Source of the DNA: Candidatus Thiodictyon syntrophicum
GTDB lineage: Bacteria > Pseudomonadota > Gammaproteobacteria > Chromatiales > Chromatiaceae
DNA: 64,000 bases
Assembly (NCBI RefSeq): GCF_002813775.1
Contig: NZ_CP020370.1
Location: 1,207,501-1,271,500, forward strand
Reading direction: 5' to 3'
Part shown: positions 3,294 through 64,000 of the stretch, in pieces
Layout: each line of letters opens with the position of its first letter
Numbering within the stretch: the first letter of the stretch is position 1
Program-made: the position numbers and the translations under genes
The notes under the pieces: model-generated
Told to the model about the DNA's origin: nothing
Seen by the model: only the letters and a program-made list of their open reading frames with translations
Database searches by the model: none

Positions 3294-5834
3294 CTAGCCG
3301 CGCCCGTGCGTTGCTGTCAGTGCATAGACCGCGTCGGGCCAGCGTACCGCGGTGACTCCTTGCAGGCCGGCCAGGATGCGCTCGGTCAGGGCGCTATCGA
3401 CTTGGTGTCCGTTTCCGGGGGTGGGGGCGGCCGCAACCGGCGTCCGCAGGTTCCGGGCGATGGCCGTGAGGCCGTCTGAGACCCCGCGGGATTGGGCCAG
3501 GGCCTCATAAAGCGCGTCCTGGGAGAGGCAGTGGAGGAAGGCCGCCACCACTGCGCCCTCCGCGTCGGTCCCGCGATGACCGGGCGCGATGACCAGTTCA
3601 AGCCAATCCAGCACCGCGGTGCCCAGACCGATGCTGTGCAGGTCGGCGAAGGTCCGCGGCCAGCGCGCCCGGGGGGTGCGGCGCAACCAGGTGCAGAGGG
3701 CGAGCGGTGTCAGCCCCGGGGCTTCGTCGGCCGCTGCGGCACGGCTTGGGAGTGGGGAGGCCAGCGGGGGTGGGGGGGCTACCGGATCGTAGGGGGCTGA
3801 CGGAGTCTCGGGGATCTCCAGATAGTCCAAATCGCCTTTTTCCACGTAGGGCGCTGCCCCCTGGGGGGCGGGCGACGACTCGGCGACGCTGAAACAGATG
3901 GCCTCATCGGGAGGCGGGGGGGCGCTCAGGTCGGCTTGTCGGCGCAGGAAGGCGGGGATGTCCACATAGGCCAGGTCGGACGACGGCTCGCAAAGGACCG
4001 TTGCACCCTCATCGACGCGGTCTCCCGCGCTTGGACGCGCCCAGCCGCTCCCCATCACCGATCCCGTTCCCCCCCAGCCGGCCGGGAGCATCTGTGTGAC
4101 CTGGTGAAGCTCCGGCATCTGCGTCGGCGCCTCCCCCGCGGCCCGCGCCTGGACCAGCAGGAAATTGGTGCGGTCCGTGACCAATTGGTAGGCGACGGCC
4201 AACGCGATGGCCTGCGTCGCGGTCGTATCCGCCGCCGCCAGGGCCTGGATACGCGCCGCGGCGGCGACCCGCGCCAGGTCGGCGCCCGCGCCCGGTTGAG
4301 GTTCCTCGGGGGCCGGTCCCGCCGCAAAATCGGCGCGTGCGATCTCGGTCAGCGCGGCACCGGGTGCCGGTGCACCGAGCAGGCGGACCGCACCGACCGG
4401 TACCTGTCCCAGCCAGGCGAAGGCGTCGACGGTGTCTCCATCGAAGACGGCCGTCCCCAGGGGCGAAACCCACCCGGGCGTCACGCCCTCCGGCCAGACC
4501 AGGGTCAGGTCGGTCAGGCGCGGCGAGCGCAGGCGCGCGAACATCCGCAGCACGGCGGGCTCCACCGCCTCACCCGGGGCCACGAAGTCGCAGGCGCCGG
4601 CGGTCGCCTCGGCCAGGCGGCGCAGGTGGCCGGCCGCCGGGCTGGCGCCGATCCCGACGGCAAAGACCCGGTGGCCGGTCCCGCGGACCGCGGCGATGGT
4701 GTGCTCGATCGCCTCGATCTCCCCATCCGTGACCAGCAGCAGGTCGCTCGCCCCGCCGTGGGCCAGGGCGCAGGTGGACTCCAGGGCGCGCGCCATCTCG
4801 GTGCCGCCCAGGTCCGCCTCCAGGGCGCCGATCCAGCGTTGGGCCGCGAGGCGGGTCGTCTCGGTCAGGGTCCACAGGCCGCGGGAGCGATGCTCGACCT
4901 GGCTGCCGAAGCGCGACAGGCAGAAGCGGTCGGCCGCCCCCAACTGACCCAGGACCGCCTGCAGGGCGCGCCGGGCGGCGGCGATGCTGTCGCCCGCCAT
5001 AGACCCGGAGCAGTCCACCAGGACCTTCACGGCCAGGGCGGTGCGGGCCGGCAGGCGCGGACAGAAGCTCGCCAGCACGACGACGGGGTCGTCCGCCGCC
5101 GGGTCCGGCGCCATCACCACGACGCCGGCCTGCGCGAGGCGGTCGACCACCAGCACGAAGTCCCGGTCCAGGGCGCCCTGCCGGGCCAGCGTGACGGTCA
5201 AGACCTCGCCCCCGGCGGTCCGGTCCAGGCCCACGGCGATCGGGTGGCTGGGGGAGGCGACCCGGGCGCGCGCCAGTTCGCCATGCAGACACAGGCGCAG
5301 GTCGAAGGGGTAGGCGGCCAGCGGGTCGAACGCCAAGGCCTGATGGGGCTGCAGGCCGCCGTCGCGTACCGGGTCCCCATAGCGCGGGGCGATCAGGGTC
5401 GGGATCAGCAGGCGCAGACCGCCCTGCTCGAAGGCAAGGACCTGCGCATAGCGCAGCGTCACCAGACAGGTCTCCCCGGCCAGCAGGTTGCCCAGGTTCA
5501 GGCTGTAGCTCCCGTCCGGGTTGCGCTCCAGCATGATCGCGGCCTGGCCGGCGCACAGGGCCTCCTCGTAGCGCGCCTCCGCCTGGCGCTTCTCGACCAC
5601 GGACCCGGTCAGGCGCTGCCCGCCGAGGATGACCTCGACCCCCAGAAGGACGGCGCCGCAGGGCAGCGGGAAGCGGTAGACGACCTCGCTGTTGGTCGCG
5701 GCCGTATTGCGGAAGCGTTGCTCAACCGTCAGCGTCAGCAGCAGGCCCCGCAGGTCGCCGGCGGCGCGCACGCCCTCCAGCATCGCCGGCTCCCCGCCCC
5801 TGGTCTCCAAACGCGCGCACTGGTGCTGTTGCAT
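3294..5834 (-). CDS. VIT and VWA domain protein
   Basis: An 846-residue protein. Residues about 10-140 form a VIT domain (VEQRFRNTAATNSEVVYRFPLP, GSVVEKRQAEARYEEA). Residues about 265-430 form a von Willebrand A domain with an intact metal site beginning VDCSGSMAGDS (DxSxS). The C-terminal 350 residues are proline- and acid-rich, with two short similar motifs (LAYVDIPAFL and LDYLEIPETP), then a helical end. VIT+VWA proteins resemble inter-alpha-trypsin inhibitor heavy chains and bind protein ligands; no signal peptide is evident, so the location is unclear. The start is the ATG at 5834; the open frame extends further upstream, but that part is antisense to another gene and shows no homology. 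A truncated MerR-like gene ends 14 bp upstream, suggesting a former operon. Confidence 0.8.
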   Translation of the reverse strand: MQQHQCARLETRGGEPAMLEGVRAAGDLRGLLLTLTVEQRFRNTAATNSEVVYRFPLPCGAVLLGVEVILGGQRLTGSVVEKRQAEARYEEALCAGQAAIMLERNPDGSYSLNLGNLLAGETCLVTLRYAQVLAFEQGGLRLLIPTLIAPRYGDPVRDGGLQPHQALAFDPLAAYPFDLRLCLHGELARARVASPSHPIAVGLDRTAGGEVLTVTLARQGALDRDFVLVVDRLAQAGVVVMAPDPAADDPVVVLASFCPRLPARTALAVKVLVDCSGSMAGDSIAAARRALQAVLGQLGAADRFCLSRFGSQVEHRSRGLWTLTETTRLAAQRWIGALEADLGGTEMARALESTCALAHGGASDLLLVTDGEIEAIEHTIAAVRGTGHRVFAVGIGASPAAGHLRRLAEATAGACDFVAPGEAVEPAVLRMFARLRSPRLTDLTLVWPEGVTPGWVSPLGTAVFDGDTVDAFAWLGQVPVGAVRLLGAPAPGAALTEIARADFAAGPAPEEPQPGAGADLARVAAAARIQALAAADTTATQAIALAVAYQLVTDRTNFLLVQARAAGEAPTQMPELHQVTQMLPAGWGGTGSVMGSGWARPSAGDRVDEGATVLCEPSSDLAYVDIPAFLRRQADLSAPPPPDEAICFSVAESSPAPQGAAPYVEKGDLDYLEIPETPSAPYDPVAPPPPLASPLPSRAAAADEAPGLTPLALCTWLRRTPRARWPRTFADLHSIGLGTAVLDWLELVIAPGHRGTDAEGAVVAAFLHCLSQDALYEALAQSRGVSDGLTAIARNLRTPVAAAPTPGNGHQVDSALTERILAGLQGVTAVRWPDAVYALTATHGRG

Positions 5835-56782: not shown

Positions 56783-58516
56783 CCCGAATGTTTCATAAGG
56801 GCGCCGCGAGCCCCAGTACCCGAGTGCGGAACTTGGAGAATAACCCTAGCGACGAGCCCGGCAGCCACCAAAACGGCGCGCAGGAGATCAGCGGGAATCG
56901 CAGGCGAAGGCGTTTCGCTGCCGTTCGGTCCATCATTTCCGCCCAAAGTGGACCGACGCGCACAGGTCATCCTGCCCGGGTGAGCATCAGCAATACGAAG
57001 ACCGAATGGATCGGTGGGGTCAGGAGATGAGCGGTCCCGGCGGCCGGGCCAAGAACAAGAGTTCGGTCACCCGATGCAACAGATCCTTGACCGGGCAGTG
57101 GGTCGGCAGCTGGAGGCGGATGCGGTCTTTGTATTGCACCACGCGCACGGCGATCTTGAACAATTTGATGATGACCGTGGCGGGCTGGGCCTGGGCCAGT
57201 TCGGTATGGACCAGGACCTCGGTGCGTAGCGCTTGGTGCAACACATAGGCGCCGCAGGAGAAGAACAGGCGCATATGATTGGCCAGAAAGCTGTGGTCGG
57301 AGGTGCGGTCGCTGGCCAAGTCGTTTTTCATCTTCTTGATGAAATTCTCATCCTGGCCGCGCGCGCAATAGAGATCGCGATAGAGGTTCTCCGGGGTGGG
57401 CAGGCGCAGGGAGGTGACGACGAAGCGGGGATTGTCGTCGAAACCCATGACCTCGGCCTTGAGCACGACCCGGAAGGGTTGCGGCCAGGAGCCGGCCGCA
57501 TAGTCCAGTTCATGGTAGGTGCGGGTATGCACCGGCTCCGACTGGCCCAGGCGTTCGGCATTCTGACACCGGATGGCATGCGTGCGGCGATTGGCCTCCA
57601 GATACGGCTGTGCGAAGCGCGCTAACACCTTGTTATTACTGAGGCCGAAGATGAAGTCGGCGTGCGGGTCGTCAAGCGCCAGCTGCATCAGCTCCGGGTT
57701 GGAGAAATGCCCATCGCCGCGCAGCACGATGTGGGTCTGCGGCCAGGCCGCCCGCAAGCGTTTGAGCACGCGCCGGATGATCATGGCGTTTTCGGCCCCC
57801 GTCGGGCGCTTGCCGGGACGCAGGGCGGCGGTGATGAAGTTCCCGGAGAGTCCCTCGAAGAGAAACAACGGCAGGTAGCAATGACTGCCGTAGTGGTGGT
57901 TGTAGAAACTGAACTCCTGCTGACCGTGCGTGGCGTCCTCAGAGTGATCCATGTCGATCACGATGATGCTCGGCGGCGTGGCATAACTGGCGATGAATTG
58001 ATCGACGTAGCCCTGGGCCATGCGGTAGATGTCTTTGGTGGTGGCCGCATTCTCCAGGCGTGAGATCGTCGGGGCGCTGGCCAGATCGTTCTCGCGGTCC
58101 AGGGGCCGACGCTCCAGTGCGAGCTTGAACATCGGATCACTCCGCAGCGCGTTGGCGTCGTTGCCATCCTCATAGGCGCAGGCGATCTGATACACGCGTT
58201 GGGCGATGAGGTCACGCGCTGGATGCGTGATGTAGCTGGGGTGACGCTGGTCGTCAAAGGCGGCGGCCAGGCGCTCGGTCAGCCCGATCTGGCGGTCGAC
58301 ACCGCGCAGGATCAGGGGGCCGAAATCCGACGACAGCGCTCCGCCATCGAAGTCCCCGCGCACGGTCAAGCCGTCGATGGGAGGAAAACGCAACTGGACT
58401 GGGGTAGACTCTGCCATGGGGCGACCTCGTTTAGCTTCTTCCGAAGCGTTATTGGCGTAACACCAATTATATCAATTGGTTGAACGAGTGTCGCCCCTCT
58501 TTGTGAATAATCCGGG
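56783..58516 (-). mobile_element. IS1380-type insertion sequence, complete
   Basis: A 1734-bp element with terminal repeats CCCGAATGTTTCATAA (56783-56798) and, inverted, CCCGGATTATTCACAA (58501-58516), 12 of 16 matching. Both ends are flanked by the same 4-bp direct repeat CTAT (56779-56782 and 58517-58520). It carries one transposase gene and looks intact. Confidence 0.85.
57020..58417 (-). CDS. IS1380 family transposase
   Basis: A 465-residue DDE transposase. The family pattern is clear: FDGGALSSDFGPLILRGVDR at the start, then VIDMDHSEDATHGQQEFSFY with a catalytic Asp, LRGDGHFSNPELMQLALDD with the second, and CARGQDENFIKKMKNDLASD with the final Glu. Length is usual for IS1380. The upstream part of the IS holds an ACCAATT/AATTGGT palindrome (58471-58489) that may control the promoter. 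Confidence 0.93.
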   Translation of the reverse strand: MAESTPVQLRFPPIDGLTVRGDFDGGALSSDFGPLILRGVDRQIGLTERLAAAFDDQRHPSYITHPARDLIAQRVYQIACAYEDGNDANALRSDPMFKLALERRPLDRENDLASAPTISRLENAATTKDIYRMAQGYVDQFIASYATPPSIIVIDMDHSEDATHGQQEFSFYNHHYGSHCYLPLFLFEGLSGNFITAALRPGKRPTGAENAMIIRRVLKRLRAAWPQTHIVLRGDGHFSNPELMQLALDDPHADFIFGLSNNKVLARFAQPYLEANRRTHAIRCQNAERLGQSEPVHTRTYHELDYAAGSWPQPFRVVLKAEVMGFDDNPRFVVTSLRLPTPENLYRDLYCARGQDENFIKKMKNDLASDRTSDHSFLANHMRLFFSCGAYVLHQALRTEVLVHTELAQAQPATVIIKLFKIAVRVVQYKDRIRLQLPTHCPVKDLLHRVTELLFLARPPGPLIS

Positions 58517-58720
58517 CTATATTCATGGGTGAGGGCACCCCATCGTGGCAGGTGCGGCGCGTCACGCAGCCCTGAAGCATAACCGCGCCACCCCAGTCAC
58601 GGCGCGGGCTGGCGGGGGTTAGAGAAAGTTAATGTTCGCACAAGGGGGTAGACACCGCGCGGCGACTCTGGCAGGATTAATGGCAGGGTAATCGGTCTGC
58701 CGTTCCGCCGGGGGGTGGCG

Positions 58721-59620
58721 ATGGGTGCGATGAGTCCAGGACCGTGGGTGCACTGTGGTCGCGTCTTCAGCGTCGAGGAGATCGCCGGTATCCGCCAGAC
58801 GGTGGCGTGGCTGCCGCGGTTGGGGCGGCGCGAGTTGGCGGCGACGCTGTGCGAGCATTTGCAGTGGTATACCGTGACGGGGGCGGCGAAGGTTCACGCC
58901 TGTCGGGAGTTTCTGGAACGTCTGGAGGCGGCCGGGTTGGTGGCGCTGCCCCCGTTGCAGGTCGCGCGGCGTCCCCGCCCGGTCCCCCCGGCGCCGGTGG
59001 TGGCGGCGCCGATGCCGATTCACGGCCCCTTGGCCGCGCTCGGCCCGGTGCGCCTGGCGCCGGTGCGCGCCGACGCCGCGGCGGTGGCGCAATGGAATGC
59101 GGCGGTCGCGCGTTGGCACCCCTTGGGCTACAAGGGTGCCTTCGGCTACCGGCTGCGCTACTTCATCACCGCGGGCGAGCAGCACCTGGGCTGCCTCCTG
59201 CTGGCGGGCGCGGCGCGCGCGCTGGCGGTGCGTGACCACTGGATCGGGTGGGACGCCCAGACGCGCCGGGCCAACCAGGTGCGGGTGCTCAACAACAGCC
59301 GCTTTCTGATCTTTCCCCACGTCCAGGTGCCGCACCTGGCCAGCCATGTGCTGGGACAACTGGCGCGGCGGGTGCGCGCCGATTGGCTCGAACACTGGGG
59401 GTTTGCGCCGCTGTTGCTGGAGACCTTCGTCGACCCGCGCCACTACGCCGGCACCTGTTACCGTGCCGCCGGGTGGGAACTGCTGGGGGAGACCAGCGGG
59501 AGCGGGCTGGCGCGACCGGGCCGGACCTATCACAGCGCCCCGCGCCAAGTCTGGGTCAAGCCCTTGAGTGCACAGTGGCGCGAGCGCTTGTGCGCCGCGT
59601 CCGGGGGGACGACGCCATGA
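58721..59620 (+). CDS. DruA-like DUF4338 protein in transposon
   Basis: A 299-residue DUF4338 protein, the family that includes Druantia DruA. Diagnostic segments are WHPLGYKGAFGYRLRYFITA, CLLLAGAARALAVRDHWIGW, NNSRFLIFPHVQVPHLASHV and the end ETFVDPRHYAGTCYRAAGWE. The N-terminal 90 residues are helical (VFSVEEIAGIRQTVAWLPRL), then a Pro/Ala linker. In Druantia the protein is one of several defence subunits, but here it is the first gene of a transposon, coupled by ATGA overlap to a transposase. It may therefore serve transposition; other Druantia genes are absent. The ATG at 58721 is chosen for its G-rich ribosome site. Confidence 0.85.
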   Translation: MGAMSPGPWVHCGRVFSVEEIAGIRQTVAWLPRLGRRELAATLCEHLQWYTVTGAAKVHACREFLERLEAAGLVALPPLQVARRPRPVPPAPVVAAPMPIHGPLAALGPVRLAPVRADAAAVAQWNAAVARWHPLGYKGAFGYRLRYFITAGEQHLGCLLLAGAARALAVRDHWIGWDAQTRRANQVRVLNNSRFLIFPHVQVPHLASHVLGQLARRVRADWLEHWGFAPLLLETFVDPRHYAGTCYRAAGWELLGETSGSGLARPGRTYHSAPRQVWVKPLSAQWRERLCAASGGTTP

Positions 59621-61137
59621 GCAAACCCTGCCGCCGCCTGTCACGCGCGGCCATCAAGGAGCAACGCGCGCACAAGAAACAGCAGGAACAGGCGCTACGC
59701 CAACAGCAGCGCCAGGACGGACTGATCCCCCGCGTACCCGCGCCGTTACCCAATCGCTGCTCGGCGTACGCCACGCTCGCCGAGGAACAGCAGGCCCGCG
59801 AGGCGGCGGTCAGCGGCCAGGTGCGCGTCCTGCGCCGGGAACTGCCCGCGTTGCTCGCCGCCCTGGGACAGATTCCCGAGCCCCGCAACCCCAAGAAGTG
59901 TCGGCATCGGCTCACCGTGCTGCTGCTCTACGGGCTGCTGATGTTCGTCTTTCAGTTCGCCTCCCGGCGCGCGGTCAACCGCGAACTGACGCACCCCCAG
60001 TTCGAGGCCAACCTACGGCTCCTGTTCCCCGAACTGGAGACCCTCCCGCACGCCGACACCCTGTTTCGGCTGCTGCGCGACATCGACGTGACCCACCTCG
60101 AACAGGCGCACATCGACCTGGTACGCCGCCTGATCCGCGCCAAGACCTTCCGCCGCTACCTGATCAACCACGCCTATCCCATCGCCATCGACGGCTCCCA
60201 GAAATTCACCCGTGACCACCTCTGGGATGAGAATCTCCTGGAACGTCAGGTCGGGGCCGAGGACGCGCGCCACACCCAGTACTTCGTCTACGTCCTGGAG
60301 GCCAGTCTGGCCTTTCACAACGGGCTGGTGATCCCCTTGCTGAGCGAATTCCTCGAATATGCCAAGGGCGATACCAAGGCCGACAAACAAGACTGCGAAC
60401 GGCGCGCCTTCACGCGGCTCAGCGCCCGGATCAAGACGCTGTTCCCGCGCCTGCCGATCTTGCTGTTGCTCGACGGTCTCTATGCCGACGGACCGGTGAT
60501 GCAGTGCTGCCATCAGTACCACTGGCAGTTCATGATCGTTTTCAAGGACAAGGACTTGCCTACGGTCTGGGAGGAATTCCACGCGCTGCACGCGGTGCAG
60601 CCAGCGGGTTGTCAGCGCGACTGGGGGGAGCGCCACCAGCGCTTTTCCTGGGTCAACGCGATCGACTATGCCTTCTCAAACAACACGCGCCGCCACCTCA
60701 GTCTGCATGTGGTGGTCTGTGAGGAGACCTGGGAGACGATCGATGAACAAGGCGCGCGCCTGACCAAGACCGCGCGCCATGCCTGGCTCTCCAGCCAACC
60801 ACTCAGCCGCGCTAATGCGCATGAGCGCTGCAACCTAGGGGCCCGTTACCGCTGGGGCATCGAGGCCGGCTTCCTGGTGGAGAAACATCAGGGTTACCAC
60901 TACGAGCACGCCTTTGCCCTGAACTGGAACGCCATGAAGGGCTATCACTACCTGATGCGCCTGGCGCACCTGTTCAACACCCTGGCACGCTTTGCCCGCC
61001 ATCTGCGCGAGCTTTATCGCACCCTGGGCGTGCGTGGCGCCATCGCCTTCATCCGCGCGTCCTGTGCCGGCCCCTGGCTCGACCCCGCGCGGATGCGCCG
61101 CCTGCTCGCCCAGCCGCTGCAGCTTCAGCTCGAATAA
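59617..61137 (+). CDS. DDE transposase of DruA-carrying transposon
   Basis: A 506-residue transposase. The Lys/Arg/Gln-rich N-terminus (RAAIKEQRAHKKQQEQALRQ) probably binds DNA. The catalytic core shows Asp in PIAIDGSQKF, Asp in LLLLDGLYADGPV and Glu in RYRWGIEAGFLVEKHQ. The C-terminal part is helical (HLFNTLARFARHLRELYRTL). It resembles ISNCY-type or IS1634-like transposases, but I cannot name the family with certainty. Its start overlaps the DruA-like stop, so the two are made together. Confidence 0.85.
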   Translation: MSKPCRRLSRAAIKEQRAHKKQQEQALRQQQRQDGLIPRVPAPLPNRCSAYATLAEEQQAREAAVSGQVRVLRRELPALLAALGQIPEPRNPKKCRHRLTVLLLYGLLMFVFQFASRRAVNRELTHPQFEANLRLLFPELETLPHADTLFRLLRDIDVTHLEQAHIDLVRRLIRAKTFRRYLINHAYPIAIDGSQKFTRDHLWDENLLERQVGAEDARHTQYFVYVLEASLAFHNGLVIPLLSEFLEYAKGDTKADKQDCERRAFTRLSARIKTLFPRLPILLLLDGLYADGPVMQCCHQYHWQFMIVFKDKDLPTVWEEFHALHAVQPAGCQRDWGERHQRFSWVNAIDYAFSNNTRRHLSLHVVVCEETWETIDEQGARLTKTARHAWLSSQPLSRANAHERCNLGARYRWGIEAGFLVEKHQGYHYEHAFALNWNAMKGYHYLMRLAHLFNTLARFARHLRELYRTLGVRGAIAFIRASCAGPWLDPARMRRLLAQPLQLQLE

Positions 61138-61505
61138 CCGCCGCCGGGAACGGCGCCCGACCCCGGCACGCCGGCGACCACCGGTGCTGGCAACCGCTGG
61201 CCTGGCGAGCGTGACGCATGCCCGAGTACCGGTCCGACAACCCTCCCGGCACCTGCCAAACCTTCTGCCGCAACCCCCGGTCAGGGCCAACGCACCCCGC
61301 AGCGGCCAACGCCAGCGCCCAACGGCGCCGACGCCGCCCAATGTCAGCCGGCGGCAGGGTTATGCTTCAGGGCTGCGCGTCACGCTGGACGCTTGCCAGG
61401 CAATCACTGCCGTCCTATGATGAATAGCGTATGAACCAGGCCCCGGCGGCTGATCAGCTACGACCCCAATGAACCGGTGATACGGTATCCGGCGAGCACA
61501 CAACC

Positions 61506-62174
61506 ATGCCTTCAGCGATCCCCTTTTCCGCGTTGCGACAGGTATTGGTCGTCGAGGACGATCCTTACTTCCAACGCGCCGTCGGCGAGGCGGTCGTCCA
61601 GGTGGGGTCCCCCTGGCTGGTGCATGGTTGCAGCACCGGGACCGCGGCCCTGGCCTTCTGCAAGGCCCCCGCCGCGGGCCTGGACCTGGCCCTGGTCGAT
61701 CTCGGGTTGCCGGATCTGGACGGCATCGAGGTCATCCGCGCCGTCCATGTCCGCTTTCCCGCCGTGCCGATCATGGTGATCTCGAGCGTCTGCGCCGAGA
61801 CGCGGGTGCTCAGCGCCATTCGTGCCGGGGCGCTCGGCTATCTCCTGAAGGGCGACTCGGGCATGTCGATGACGCGTGCCATCGAGCAGATCCTGGCCGG
61901 CAACTATCCGATCAGCCCGAAGCTGGCGCGTTGTCTGTTCAAGCTCGCCGGGCAGGGGTCGGCCGCCGACGCGGGCGCGCTGCCCCGGCTGACGGGCAAG
62001 GAAACCGAGCTGCTGGGGCACCTGGCCGACGGCAAGTCCTATAGTCAGGCGGCGGAGCGGATGGACGTGGCGCTGTCGACCATTCAGTCCTATATCCGCA
62101 ACCTCTATCGCAAACTCGATGTCCATTCGCAGACGCAGGCGCTGTTGCGGGCGCGCGAGCATGGACTTCTGTAG
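61506..62174 (+). CDS. LuxR/NarL-type response regulator
   Basis: A 222-residue regulator. The receiver spans residues about 12-125, with the acidic pair EDDP and the phospho-acceptor Asp in LVDLGLPDLDG near residue 63. The C-terminal LuxR-type helix-turn-helix is LTGKETELLGHLADGKSYSQ and STIQSYIRNLYRKLDVHSQT. It probably receives phosphate from the NarX-like kinase convergent with it at 62479. The target genes are not known. Confidence 0.9.
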   Translation: MPSAIPFSALRQVLVVEDDPYFQRAVGEAVVQVGSPWLVHGCSTGTAALAFCKAPAAGLDLALVDLGLPDLDGIEVIRAVHVRFPAVPIMVISSVCAETRVLSAIRAGALGYLLKGDSGMSMTRAIEQILAGNYPISPKLARCLFKLAGQGSAADAGALPRLTGKETELLGHLADGKSYSQAAERMDVALSTIQSYIRNLYRKLDVHSQTQALLRAREHGLL

Positions 62175-62370: not shown

Positions 62371-62510
62371 TCACACAAAGACACAAAGATCACAAAGATC
62401 ACAAAGATTTTCAAGGCGATATGTAGGTCAAGGAGATCACCCGGGCGGTGATCCGCCCAACGCCTTCAATGATCTGTTTTACTTTGTGTTCTTTGTGTCT
62501 TTGTGTGAGC
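62371..62510. repeat. Hairpin family D
   Basis: Left arm 62371-62409 (TCACACAAAGACACAAAGAT and further ACAAAG units) pairs with 62481-62510. The right arm runs into the kinase coding region and supplies its last codons. Confidence 0.8.
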
Positions 62511-64000
62511 AATTGCCGGTTCTTGGATCAGCGAACCGTTCCTCAGCCAAGGTCAAGGATACCCGCGTCCCCCGCGCCAGCCGGCTTACGGTCAGTTCGC
62601 CCCCCAACTCGCGCGCACGGCTTTGCATGTTGCCCAGGCCGCGCCCCTGCGCCACCGCTTCCGGGATGCCGATGCCGTCGTCCGTAACGGCGATATGCAA
62701 TTGCCCGTCCGCGCGATAGATGGCCTGCAGCGCGATATGACCGGCGCGGGCATGTTTGAGCCCATTGCTCAATGCCTCCTGCATGATGCGCAGCAGCTGC
62801 AGGATCAGGCGTTGCGCAAGCGGCGGGCAGGCGTCCAACTCGATCTGCCAGTCGACGCGAATAGGCTGCTCGGCCAGGCGCCGCTCGCAGCGATAGCGCC
62901 AATCGACGATGGCGTTGCGCAGGCTGCCCGCCTCGTTGCTCATGGTGTCGACGACCAGATAGAGATCATCGAGGCATTCCTGCAGCAGGATTGCGACCTG
63001 CCCTTGGGTCAGCTCGCCGTGCTCGATGCGCAGGCGCGCCCCGGCCAGTTGCGAGCCGAAGCCGTCGTGCATGTCCTGCAACAGGCGTTCGCGCTCGGCC
63101 GTGCGCGAACGCTCCACCTCGGCGGCGGTGAGCCGCTCATACGCCTGTTTCAATGCCTGCTCGCGCTCGGCGACCCGCTCTTCGAGCGACTGGTAGAGTC
63201 GGGCGCTGTCGATGGAGATCGCCAGTTGACCGCACAGCAGCGACAGGGTTTCTACCTGGCCGACGGGAAAGGCGGCACGATATAACCGATTCTCCAGGAT
63301 CAGGAAGGCGCCGATCCGACCGTGCAGCAGCACCGGCAGGCCCAGCAGCGAACACACAGGCAATGCGGCAAAGTGTGGATCAGCCTTGAACCGGCTGTCG
63401 ATCACCGCGTCGTCGCAGATCACAGGCGCCTGGGTGCTGAGGCCCAGCCGCAGGACGCCGGCGGGCAGGACCTGCCGCTCCTTGGCCGTCTGCAGCGTTA
63501 TCCGTTCCAGCCGCTCGGCGCCCCGCAGCCCGCCTTCCAGATACCAAGCACCCGTCTCGTCGCGCAGCAGCAGTTGGACATCGGTGGCCCCGGTCAGTTG
63601 GCCCAAGAGCGCCGTCACGCGGGCCACCAGTTGCGGCAGTGACCGTTCCGACGCCAGCGCCTGTGAGGCCCGCAGCAACGCCTCCTGGTTCAGGGCGTCG
63701 TGGCGTCGCTCCCCGGCGCCGACCGCGCGACTAGGCCCCAAGAAGGGCAGTTCGTCGAGCATCGCCCGGGCCTTGCAGGTGGCGCCCCACGCGCGATAGA
63801 GGGCCTGGGCCTGCGCGAGCAGCGCCCGCGCGGCGTGCTCCAGCCCGTGTCGCAGGTAGCAGTGTCCAGCCCGCTCGGTGATCAGGGCCTGGTGCCAGGG
63901 GCGCCGGTGGGCCTGCGCCTGGCGCATGGCCTGCTCGAAGGTCTCGAATGCCAGGGCGCTGTGCCCCAGCGCGTCCAGCCGTTCGGCCTCTACCAGGGCG
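62479..64000 (-). CDS. NarX-type sensor histidine kinase, 3' part
   Basis: The frame is open to the window edge, so the gene is partial. The visible start (ALVEAERLDALGHSALAFE) is TPR-like helical repeat, of the kind found at the end of large AAA/kinase-ATPase sensors. A GAF domain follows (LTGATDVQLLLRDETGAWYL to LYQSLEERVAE), then a HisKA_3 helix with the phospho-His in LLQDMHDGFGSQLAGARLRI, and an HATPase (IMQEALSNGLKHARAGHIAL, DDGIGIPEAVAQGRGLGNMQ). The C-terminal tail HKDTKNTK reads through the right arm of hairpin D, which supplies the stop codon. The response regulator at 61506-62174 is its likely partner. Confidence 0.88.
   Translation of the reverse strand, partial: ALVEAERLDALGHSALAFETFEQAMRQAQAHRRPWHQALITERAGHCYLRHGLEHAARALLAQAQALYRAWGATCKARAMLDELPFLGPSRAVGAGERRHDALNQEALLRASQALASERSLPQLVARVTALLGQLTGATDVQLLLRDETGAWYLEGGLRGAERLERITLQTAKERQVLPAGVLRLGLSTQAPVICDDAVIDSRFKADPHFAALPVCSLLGLPVLLHGRIGAFLILENRLYRAAFPVGQVETLSLLCGQLAISIDSARLYQSLEERVAEREQALKQAYERLTAAEVERSRTAERERLLQDMHDGFGSQLAGARLRIEHGELTQGQVAILLQECLDDLYLVVDTMSNEAGSLRNAIVDWRYRCERRLAEQPIRVDWQIELDACPPLAQRLILQLLRIMQEALSNGLKHARAGHIALQAIYRADGQLHIAVTDDGIGIPEAVAQGRGLGNMQSRARELGGELTVSRLARGTRVSLTLAEERFADPRTGNCSHKDTKNTK

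Follow-up and report, generated by a model that had tools for sequence, protein, structure and literature searches.

A recently active DDE transposon carrying a DUF4338 gene that resembles phage Mu mom

Introduction

Elements of the ISAs1 family are about 1.2–1.5 kb long and generate target duplications of 8–10 bp. DNA modification is no stranger to transposition, as Dam methylation controls the movement of IS10 and IS50, and in phage Mu the mom gene is a late gene under Com and Dam control. Mom moves an acyl group onto N6 of adenine (PMC7824862). Genes other than the transposase gene are known in insertion sequences, as passenger genes in the IS231 group of the IS4 family (PMC2266710) and as extra ORFs in ISKra4/ISAzba1 elements (PMC3942029), and many lineages of fungal DNA transposons have captured TET/JBP base-modifying enzymes (PMC12730594). 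The DUF4338 family (PF14236), to which DruA of type I Druantia belongs, has been named a GNAT domain (PMC10853773). Our search of the open-licence literature turned up no account of transposons with DUF4338. Here we describe such a transposon in a window of 64,000 nucleotides, the whole stretch of DNA that was analysed.

The element and its copies

The element and its surroundings are laid out as follows:

58558..58566, no strand: left target-site duplication, 9 bp, CGCGTCACG, equal to 61376–61384
58567..61375, plus strand: complete transposon, 2809 bp, with identical ends in six genome copies and pairwise identity of 99.96–100%
58567..58584, plus strand: left terminal inverted repeat, 18 bp, CAGCCCTGAAGCATAACC, common to all copies
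58715..59620, plus strand: DUF4338 (PF14236) protein, 301 aa, GTG start (ATG at 58721 or 58730 possible), E 1.7e-27
59617..59620, plus strand: ATGA overlap of DUF4338 stop and transposase start, read from the sequence and kept in L075, L105 and IS50-type elements
59617..61137, plus strand: DDE transposase, 506 aa, with D192 (60190), D286 (60472) and E416 (60862), from PF13808 (E 6.7e-13) and motif positions
61138..61357, no strand: non-coding right subterminal region of the element, no supported ORF
61358..61375, minus strand: right terminal inverted repeat, 18 bp, from the comparison of copies
61376..61384, no strand: right target-site duplication, 9 bp, CGCGTCACG, equal to 58558–58566

The same genome holds six copies, all six with a perfect 9-bp duplication that is different at each site; the duplications at the five other copies are CGGCCGCGG, GCCGCGGCG, CACTACGGT, GCGCTCCTC and TCCGGCGGC. 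Five copies, the window's included, are identical or one base apart over 2809 bp (99.96–100% for the four intact copies outside the window), and the sixth is split by an IS21-like insertion, its two parts being 100% identical. Chance is excluded by this degree of identity, and the six sites rule out both chance and an assembly artefact as the origin of the element. With terminal inverted repeats, target duplications and several copies at different sites, it has what defines a complete DDE transposon, and it is a recently active one. The initial annotation had seen a complete transposon here, and the six copies, each with its own duplication, bear this out. It had also given the element 20-bp terminal repeats and a 5-bp target duplication, CGTCA. 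The 20-bp inverted repeat CGCAGCCCTGAAGCATAACC is really in the sequence (58565–58584 and 61358–61377), but the outer 2 bp beyond the 18-bp repeat differ among the six copies, so that the element's own repeat is just 18 bp long and the CG outside it comes from the target, palindromic here by coincidence. The CGTCA flanks are likewise present, but a duplication of 5 bp is ruled out by the 9 bp found in every copy.

The transposase matches DDE_Tnp_1_assoc (PF13808), a domain also present in the ISAs1-type fusions described below, and D192, D286 and E416 sit in the expected motifs. Because it falls below every NCBIfam transposase family cut-off, we call the element ISAs1-like rather than ISAs1; the ISAs1 model NF033564 gave no match to it, and the match to the IS1380 model is weak and under the cut-off (E 4e-5). 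Relatives of the transposase on plasmids, at 24–28% identity (Legionella L120, Saccharobesus L121), are without DUF4338. A PDB sequence search gave no match for either protein of the element, and the family profile brought up nothing noteworthy there.

The element sits in an intergenic region ahead of a response regulator gene (61506–62174, plus strand), with a sensor-kinase-like gene at 62479–63927 (minus strand), both read by eye from translations. About 150 bp to its left is an IS1380-family transposase gene (57020–58417, minus strand; NF033539, 405.9 bits), and the place is perhaps an insertion hotspot or a stretch of nested mobile DNA. As read from translations, the interrupted copy of the window element carries istA/istB, and one IS50-type copy is interrupted by a gene pair, tyrosine recombinase plus IS91-like (L020/L022 loci).

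The DUF4338 gene and its product

That the first gene encodes a DUF4338 protein, as first annotated, is confirmed by a PF14236 score of 96.8 bits against a cut-off of 27. Its translational coupling to the transposase gene, claimed at the same time, is probable from the ATGA overlap. The gene pair with its overlap is found again in a Candidatus Accumulibacter element (L075), with proteins 70% and 73% identical to those of the window, and pair and overlap occur too in other genomes of the same family; L105 likewise keeps the overlap. Against the Candidatus Accumulibacter relative, DUF4338 has a dN/dS of 0.29 and the transposase one of 0.27; across all DUF4338 pairs tried, a handful, the values range from 0.15 to 0.36, and the gene is therefore under purifying selection. 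These findings support DUF4338 as an integral, selected part of complete transposons.

Domains and residues of the protein are placed as follows, all on the plus strand:

58745..58930: N-terminal small helical domain, residues 11–72, possibly winged-helix/HTH; three helices in the model, pLDDT 82 for this domain alone
59033..59584: GNAT domain, residues 107–290, from the AlphaFold2 model and structure matches
59117..59119: codon H135, Mom H48 by profile alignment
59300..59302: codon R196, Mom R101 by profile alignment
59342..59344: codon S210, Mom S114 (Ala in the inactive Mom crystal 8bv8, there named S124A)
59432..59434: codon D240, Mom D139 by profile alignment
59459..59461: codon Y249, Mom Y149 by profile alignment

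An AlphaFold2 model built with 36 aligned relatives (pLDDT 89.9) predicts a small N-terminal helical domain and a domain with the GNAT fold. In the PDB this fold is matched best by Mom of phage Mu (8bv8), with a Foldseek E of 9.5e-7 and a VIA Z of 15.1 (166 residues, rmsd 4.0); general GNATs follow at Z 13.1 and below. Of 999 aligned chains in the VIA search 790 reach Z >= 8, and the matches listed are nearly all GNATs. For the N-terminal domain Foldseek gave no significant match and VIA only weak HTH/Myb/winged-helix matches (Z <= 5.0), and the domain is missing from the ISAs1 fusions. At the profile level, transposon-type DUF4338 aligns with 16 phage Mom proteins at an hhalign score of 67.4 (E 3.5e-9), the best of 60 column-shuffled control profiles scoring 21.8. 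The Pfam Mom family (PF25680) is weakly matched by 26 of 36 DUF4338 members (best E 3.2e-5); its cut-off of 27.1 bits is not reached by the window protein (13.6) or by L118 (22.4, the best score read).

Residues H48, R101, S114, G146 and Y149 of Mom are kept in 32 of 32 transposon-type proteins, G146 aligning with G246 of the window protein, and D139 is present as D or E, so that all 32 carry the Mom-type active-site set (H48, R101, S114, D139, Y149). When crystal 8bv8, named S124A, is set against the Mu sequence, the difference falls precisely on the position that we number S114; the inactive Mom mutant is thus defined by the loss of a residue that the transposon-type proteins keep. The predicted GNAT fold and the Mom-type active site of DUF4338 are well supported.

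How do these proteins relate to DruA? The PADLOC DruA model matches the window protein at E 8e-6, versus 7e-116 for DruA of a non-transposon locus. Druantia has druA with druB–E, druE being the helicase, in one operon; the element holds DUF4338 and a transposase only. For comparison with the Druantia type we took four DruA proteins, those of the transposase-free loci L100 and L146–L148. The transposon type shares an RDxWIGW core with them (hhalign E 5.9e-10). Against Mom the four gave no match (P 0.6%, from a thin DruA profile), and they differ from the transposon type in the aligned active-site columns, where the DruA alignment is unsure. They form one clade, set apart by a branch of 3.3 changes per site with support of 100/100. 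In a tree that includes Mom, DruA falls beside IS50-type DUF4338 (87/98), but the AU test does not reject a topology in which the transposon types stay together as one clade (p-AU 0.236). On its predicted fold, its profile match and its kept active-site residues, the transposon type stands closer to Mom of phage Mu than to DruA of Druantia. At L100:1904–6987, a Druantia-type DruA is flanked by genes for a UvrD-like helicase (916 aa) and for a 388-aa protein, and druB–E were not recognised on the short contig; this is perhaps another defence arrangement.

DUF4338 in other elements

All 19 PF14236 matches of the source genome lie inside three multi-copy element families: six of the window type, four IS50-like with ATGA coupling (one interrupted) and nine fused to an ISAs1 transposase. 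PF14236 is present in 31 of 147 genomes of the same order and in 17 of 398 of a phylum sample, at up to 30 loci per genome, a sampling within Pseudomonadota and mostly of one family. The transposases coupled or fused to it belong to at least seven families (IS4/IS50, IS4_1, ISAs1, IS66, ISKra4, IS1634 and the window type). By NCBIfam assignment it is both coupled and fused with IS4_3, and fused with IS4_1 and with ISAs1. With IS66 it is found downstream, upstream and in an apparent TnpB–DUF4338 fusion, and in one IS66 element the gene order is reversed and the overlap is again ATGA. Every transposon-type DUF4338 examined adjoins a transposase, except for contig-end loci and a decayed fragment (L079). 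In the other multi-copy families open to comparison, too, DUF4338 lies within terminal inverted repeats and target duplications, which are of 9 bp in IS50-coupled and IS50-fused elements and mostly of 10 bp in ISAs1-fused ones; in two cases, the G066 IS50 fusion and the G139 pair, our script found no clear target duplication. In the DUF4338 tree the proteins cluster mostly according to the transposase family that they accompany, and the pairs are therefore old.

Not every such transposase has this partner. The source genome also holds four ISAs1 copies without DUF4338, which is therefore not generally needed for ISAs1 transposition. Protein searches of plasmid and phage collections with the window DUF4338 gave no match, nor did searches of the plasmid collection with the IS50-, ISAs1- and IS66-type proteins.

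Several further arrangements were seen along the way. At L164:614–1897 the frame upstream of DUF4338 resembles, by eye, IS66 TnpB and is continuous with DUF4338, just before an IS66 transposase. In G102:C31, three short PF14236 fragments near 5402, 6600 and 7792, about 1.2 kb apart, are apparently in tandem. The ISAs1 transposase–DUF4338 fusions of L095, L097, L102, L117, L118, L119 and L161 are split into two ORFs, and an in-phase A_AAA_AAG heptamer (AAA AAG after CAA or GAA) precedes the split in seven of eight genomes checked. Programmed -1 frameshifting at this heptamer is probable from the sequence, and if real would make a short DUF4338-containing product the usual outcome and the full fusion a rare one. 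All nine ISAs1-fused copies of the source genome (L080–L085 and three further places) have the same split frame, 444 + 132 aa, with no A-run at the split, yet the family has spread with mostly 10-bp duplications; its copies perhaps moved in trans or by way of another recoding signal.

Discussion

The initial annotation proposed that the DruA family began, or also works, as a transposition factor. Part of this holds: because DUF4338 recurs with many transposase families, fusions included, a role in or with transposition is its natural reading. DruA, on the other hand, is only a distant relative, and the closer resemblance to phage Mu Mom means that to speak of a DruA-like transposition factor says too little about what is probably a modification enzyme. 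The initial annotation also suggested that defence DruA may have been recruited from such elements; the tree with Mom is compatible with this and equally with a separate clade of transposon types. By analogy with Mom, DUF4338 is probably a transposon-borne DNA-modifying acyltransferase that works with the transposase. Our full proposal for the window, a recently active DDE transposon with ISAs1-like ends and duplication whose coupled Mom-like GNAT acyltransferase and transposase together mark DNA, strikes us as about evenly balanced between right and wrong.

What might such a mark do for a transposon? The enzyme would take acyl-CoA and modify DNA bases (adenine in the case of Mom), and coupling or fusion to the transposase would bring the mark to the element's own ends or to the DNA being joined. 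The mark might shield transposing DNA from host nucleases or restriction, or it might set when, or which copy, an element can move. Several points count against the proposal. No Pfam Mom match above the cut-off is known; GNATs act on many substrates, among which we infer DNA here; many IS50 and ISAs1 elements are mobile without any DUF4338, which is thus not generally needed; and the dN/dS values come from few pairs. A wider version, in which the Mom-like enzyme is a shared module of many unrelated bacterial DDE transposon families, brought in by fusion or translational coupling to the transposase and marking DNA in transposition, and DruA is a derived, domesticated member, is tentative, and we think it somewhat unlikely.

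Might the protein only bind DNA? A role in the transpososome as a factor for DNA binding or assembly, with the GNAT fold binding, the N-terminal domain reading the ends and catalysis beside the point, would account for the coupling and fusion to transposases and for a three-helix domain with weak HTH-like matches, and the ends and target duplications are otherwise as usual. The ISAs1 fusions do without the N-terminal domain, however, and the Mom catalytic set, fully kept in 32 of 32 proteins, points to catalysis. IS50-type transposases moreover retain a DNA-binding domain of their own (PF14706), so that DUF4338 is not simply a stand-in for end recognition; we regard the binding factor as unlikely. 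If catalysis is granted, the target could be protein, the transposase itself or a host factor such as a nucleoid protein or RNA polymerase, with acetylation regulating transposition. Phage GNATs do act on host RNA polymerase (PMC7824862), and the next structural matches after Mom are generic protein/peptide GNATs at Z 12–13, but both profile and fold are closer to Mom than to protein acetyltransferases, and this reading seems to us distinctly unlikely.

The gene might instead be cargo. An orphan DruA, a passenger defence or anti-phage gene spread by transposons to the benefit of host and element, would fit the Pfam family and the RDxWIGW motif shared with Druantia. Against it stand the fusions to several transposase families, the ATGA coupling in both gene orders, the lack of druB–E in the element, and the Mom residues, kept in the transposon type and not in the aligned DruA columns, and we find it very doubtful. 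A neutral hitchhiker, captured repeatedly without function, is disfavoured to the point of being highly improbable: relatives of the same transposase types do exist without DUF4338, but the gene is under purifying selection like that on the transposase, and it recurs in at least seven families and at up to 30 loci in one genome.

The proposed acyltransferase reading gives DUF4338 a testable biochemical function and offers a starting point for DruA in Druantia. It points to base modification by mobile elements beyond phages such as Mu, and to many bacterial transposons modifying DNA, or some other target, while moving. Should the mark regulate or protect transposition, elements of the IS4/IS50, ISAs1, IS66, ISKra4 and IS1634 types would have a new layer of control. 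There is also a practical consequence: in this group of genomes most PF14236 matches are transposon genes and not Druantia, and annotation by PF14236 only would inflate counts of defence systems.

Among described systems, phage Mu Mom (PF25680, 8bv8) shares with the window protein the GNAT fold, H48/R101/S114/D139/Y149 and a carrier that moves by DDE transposition. The window protein differs in its extra N-terminal domain, in being under the Pfam Mom cut-off and in belonging to a family coupled or fused to transposases, whereas Mom, as a late phage protein, is uncoupled from the transposase. Druantia DruA belongs to the same Pfam family and has the RDxWIGW core, but it goes with druB–E rather than transposases, lacks the Mom match, differs in the catalytic columns and sits on a long branch. 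The ISAs1 family and its IS4 relatives resemble the window element in CAG...CTG ends, 9-bp duplication, PF13808 domain and DDE motif; unlike ISAs1, the element has a 506-aa transposase under the NCBIfam cut-offs, an extra upstream gene and a length of 2.8 kb. The IS231 group and ISKra4/ISAzba1 likewise hold additional genes beside the transposase gene, but theirs vary by element or group, whereas DUF4338 recurs across families, coupled or fused. By analogy, the nearest parallel is the capture of TET/JBP by fungal transposons, in which a single base-modifying family was likewise taken up by many unrelated DNA transposon lineages, although in eukaryotes, with another enzyme fold, and for the removal of 5-methylcytosine against silencing.
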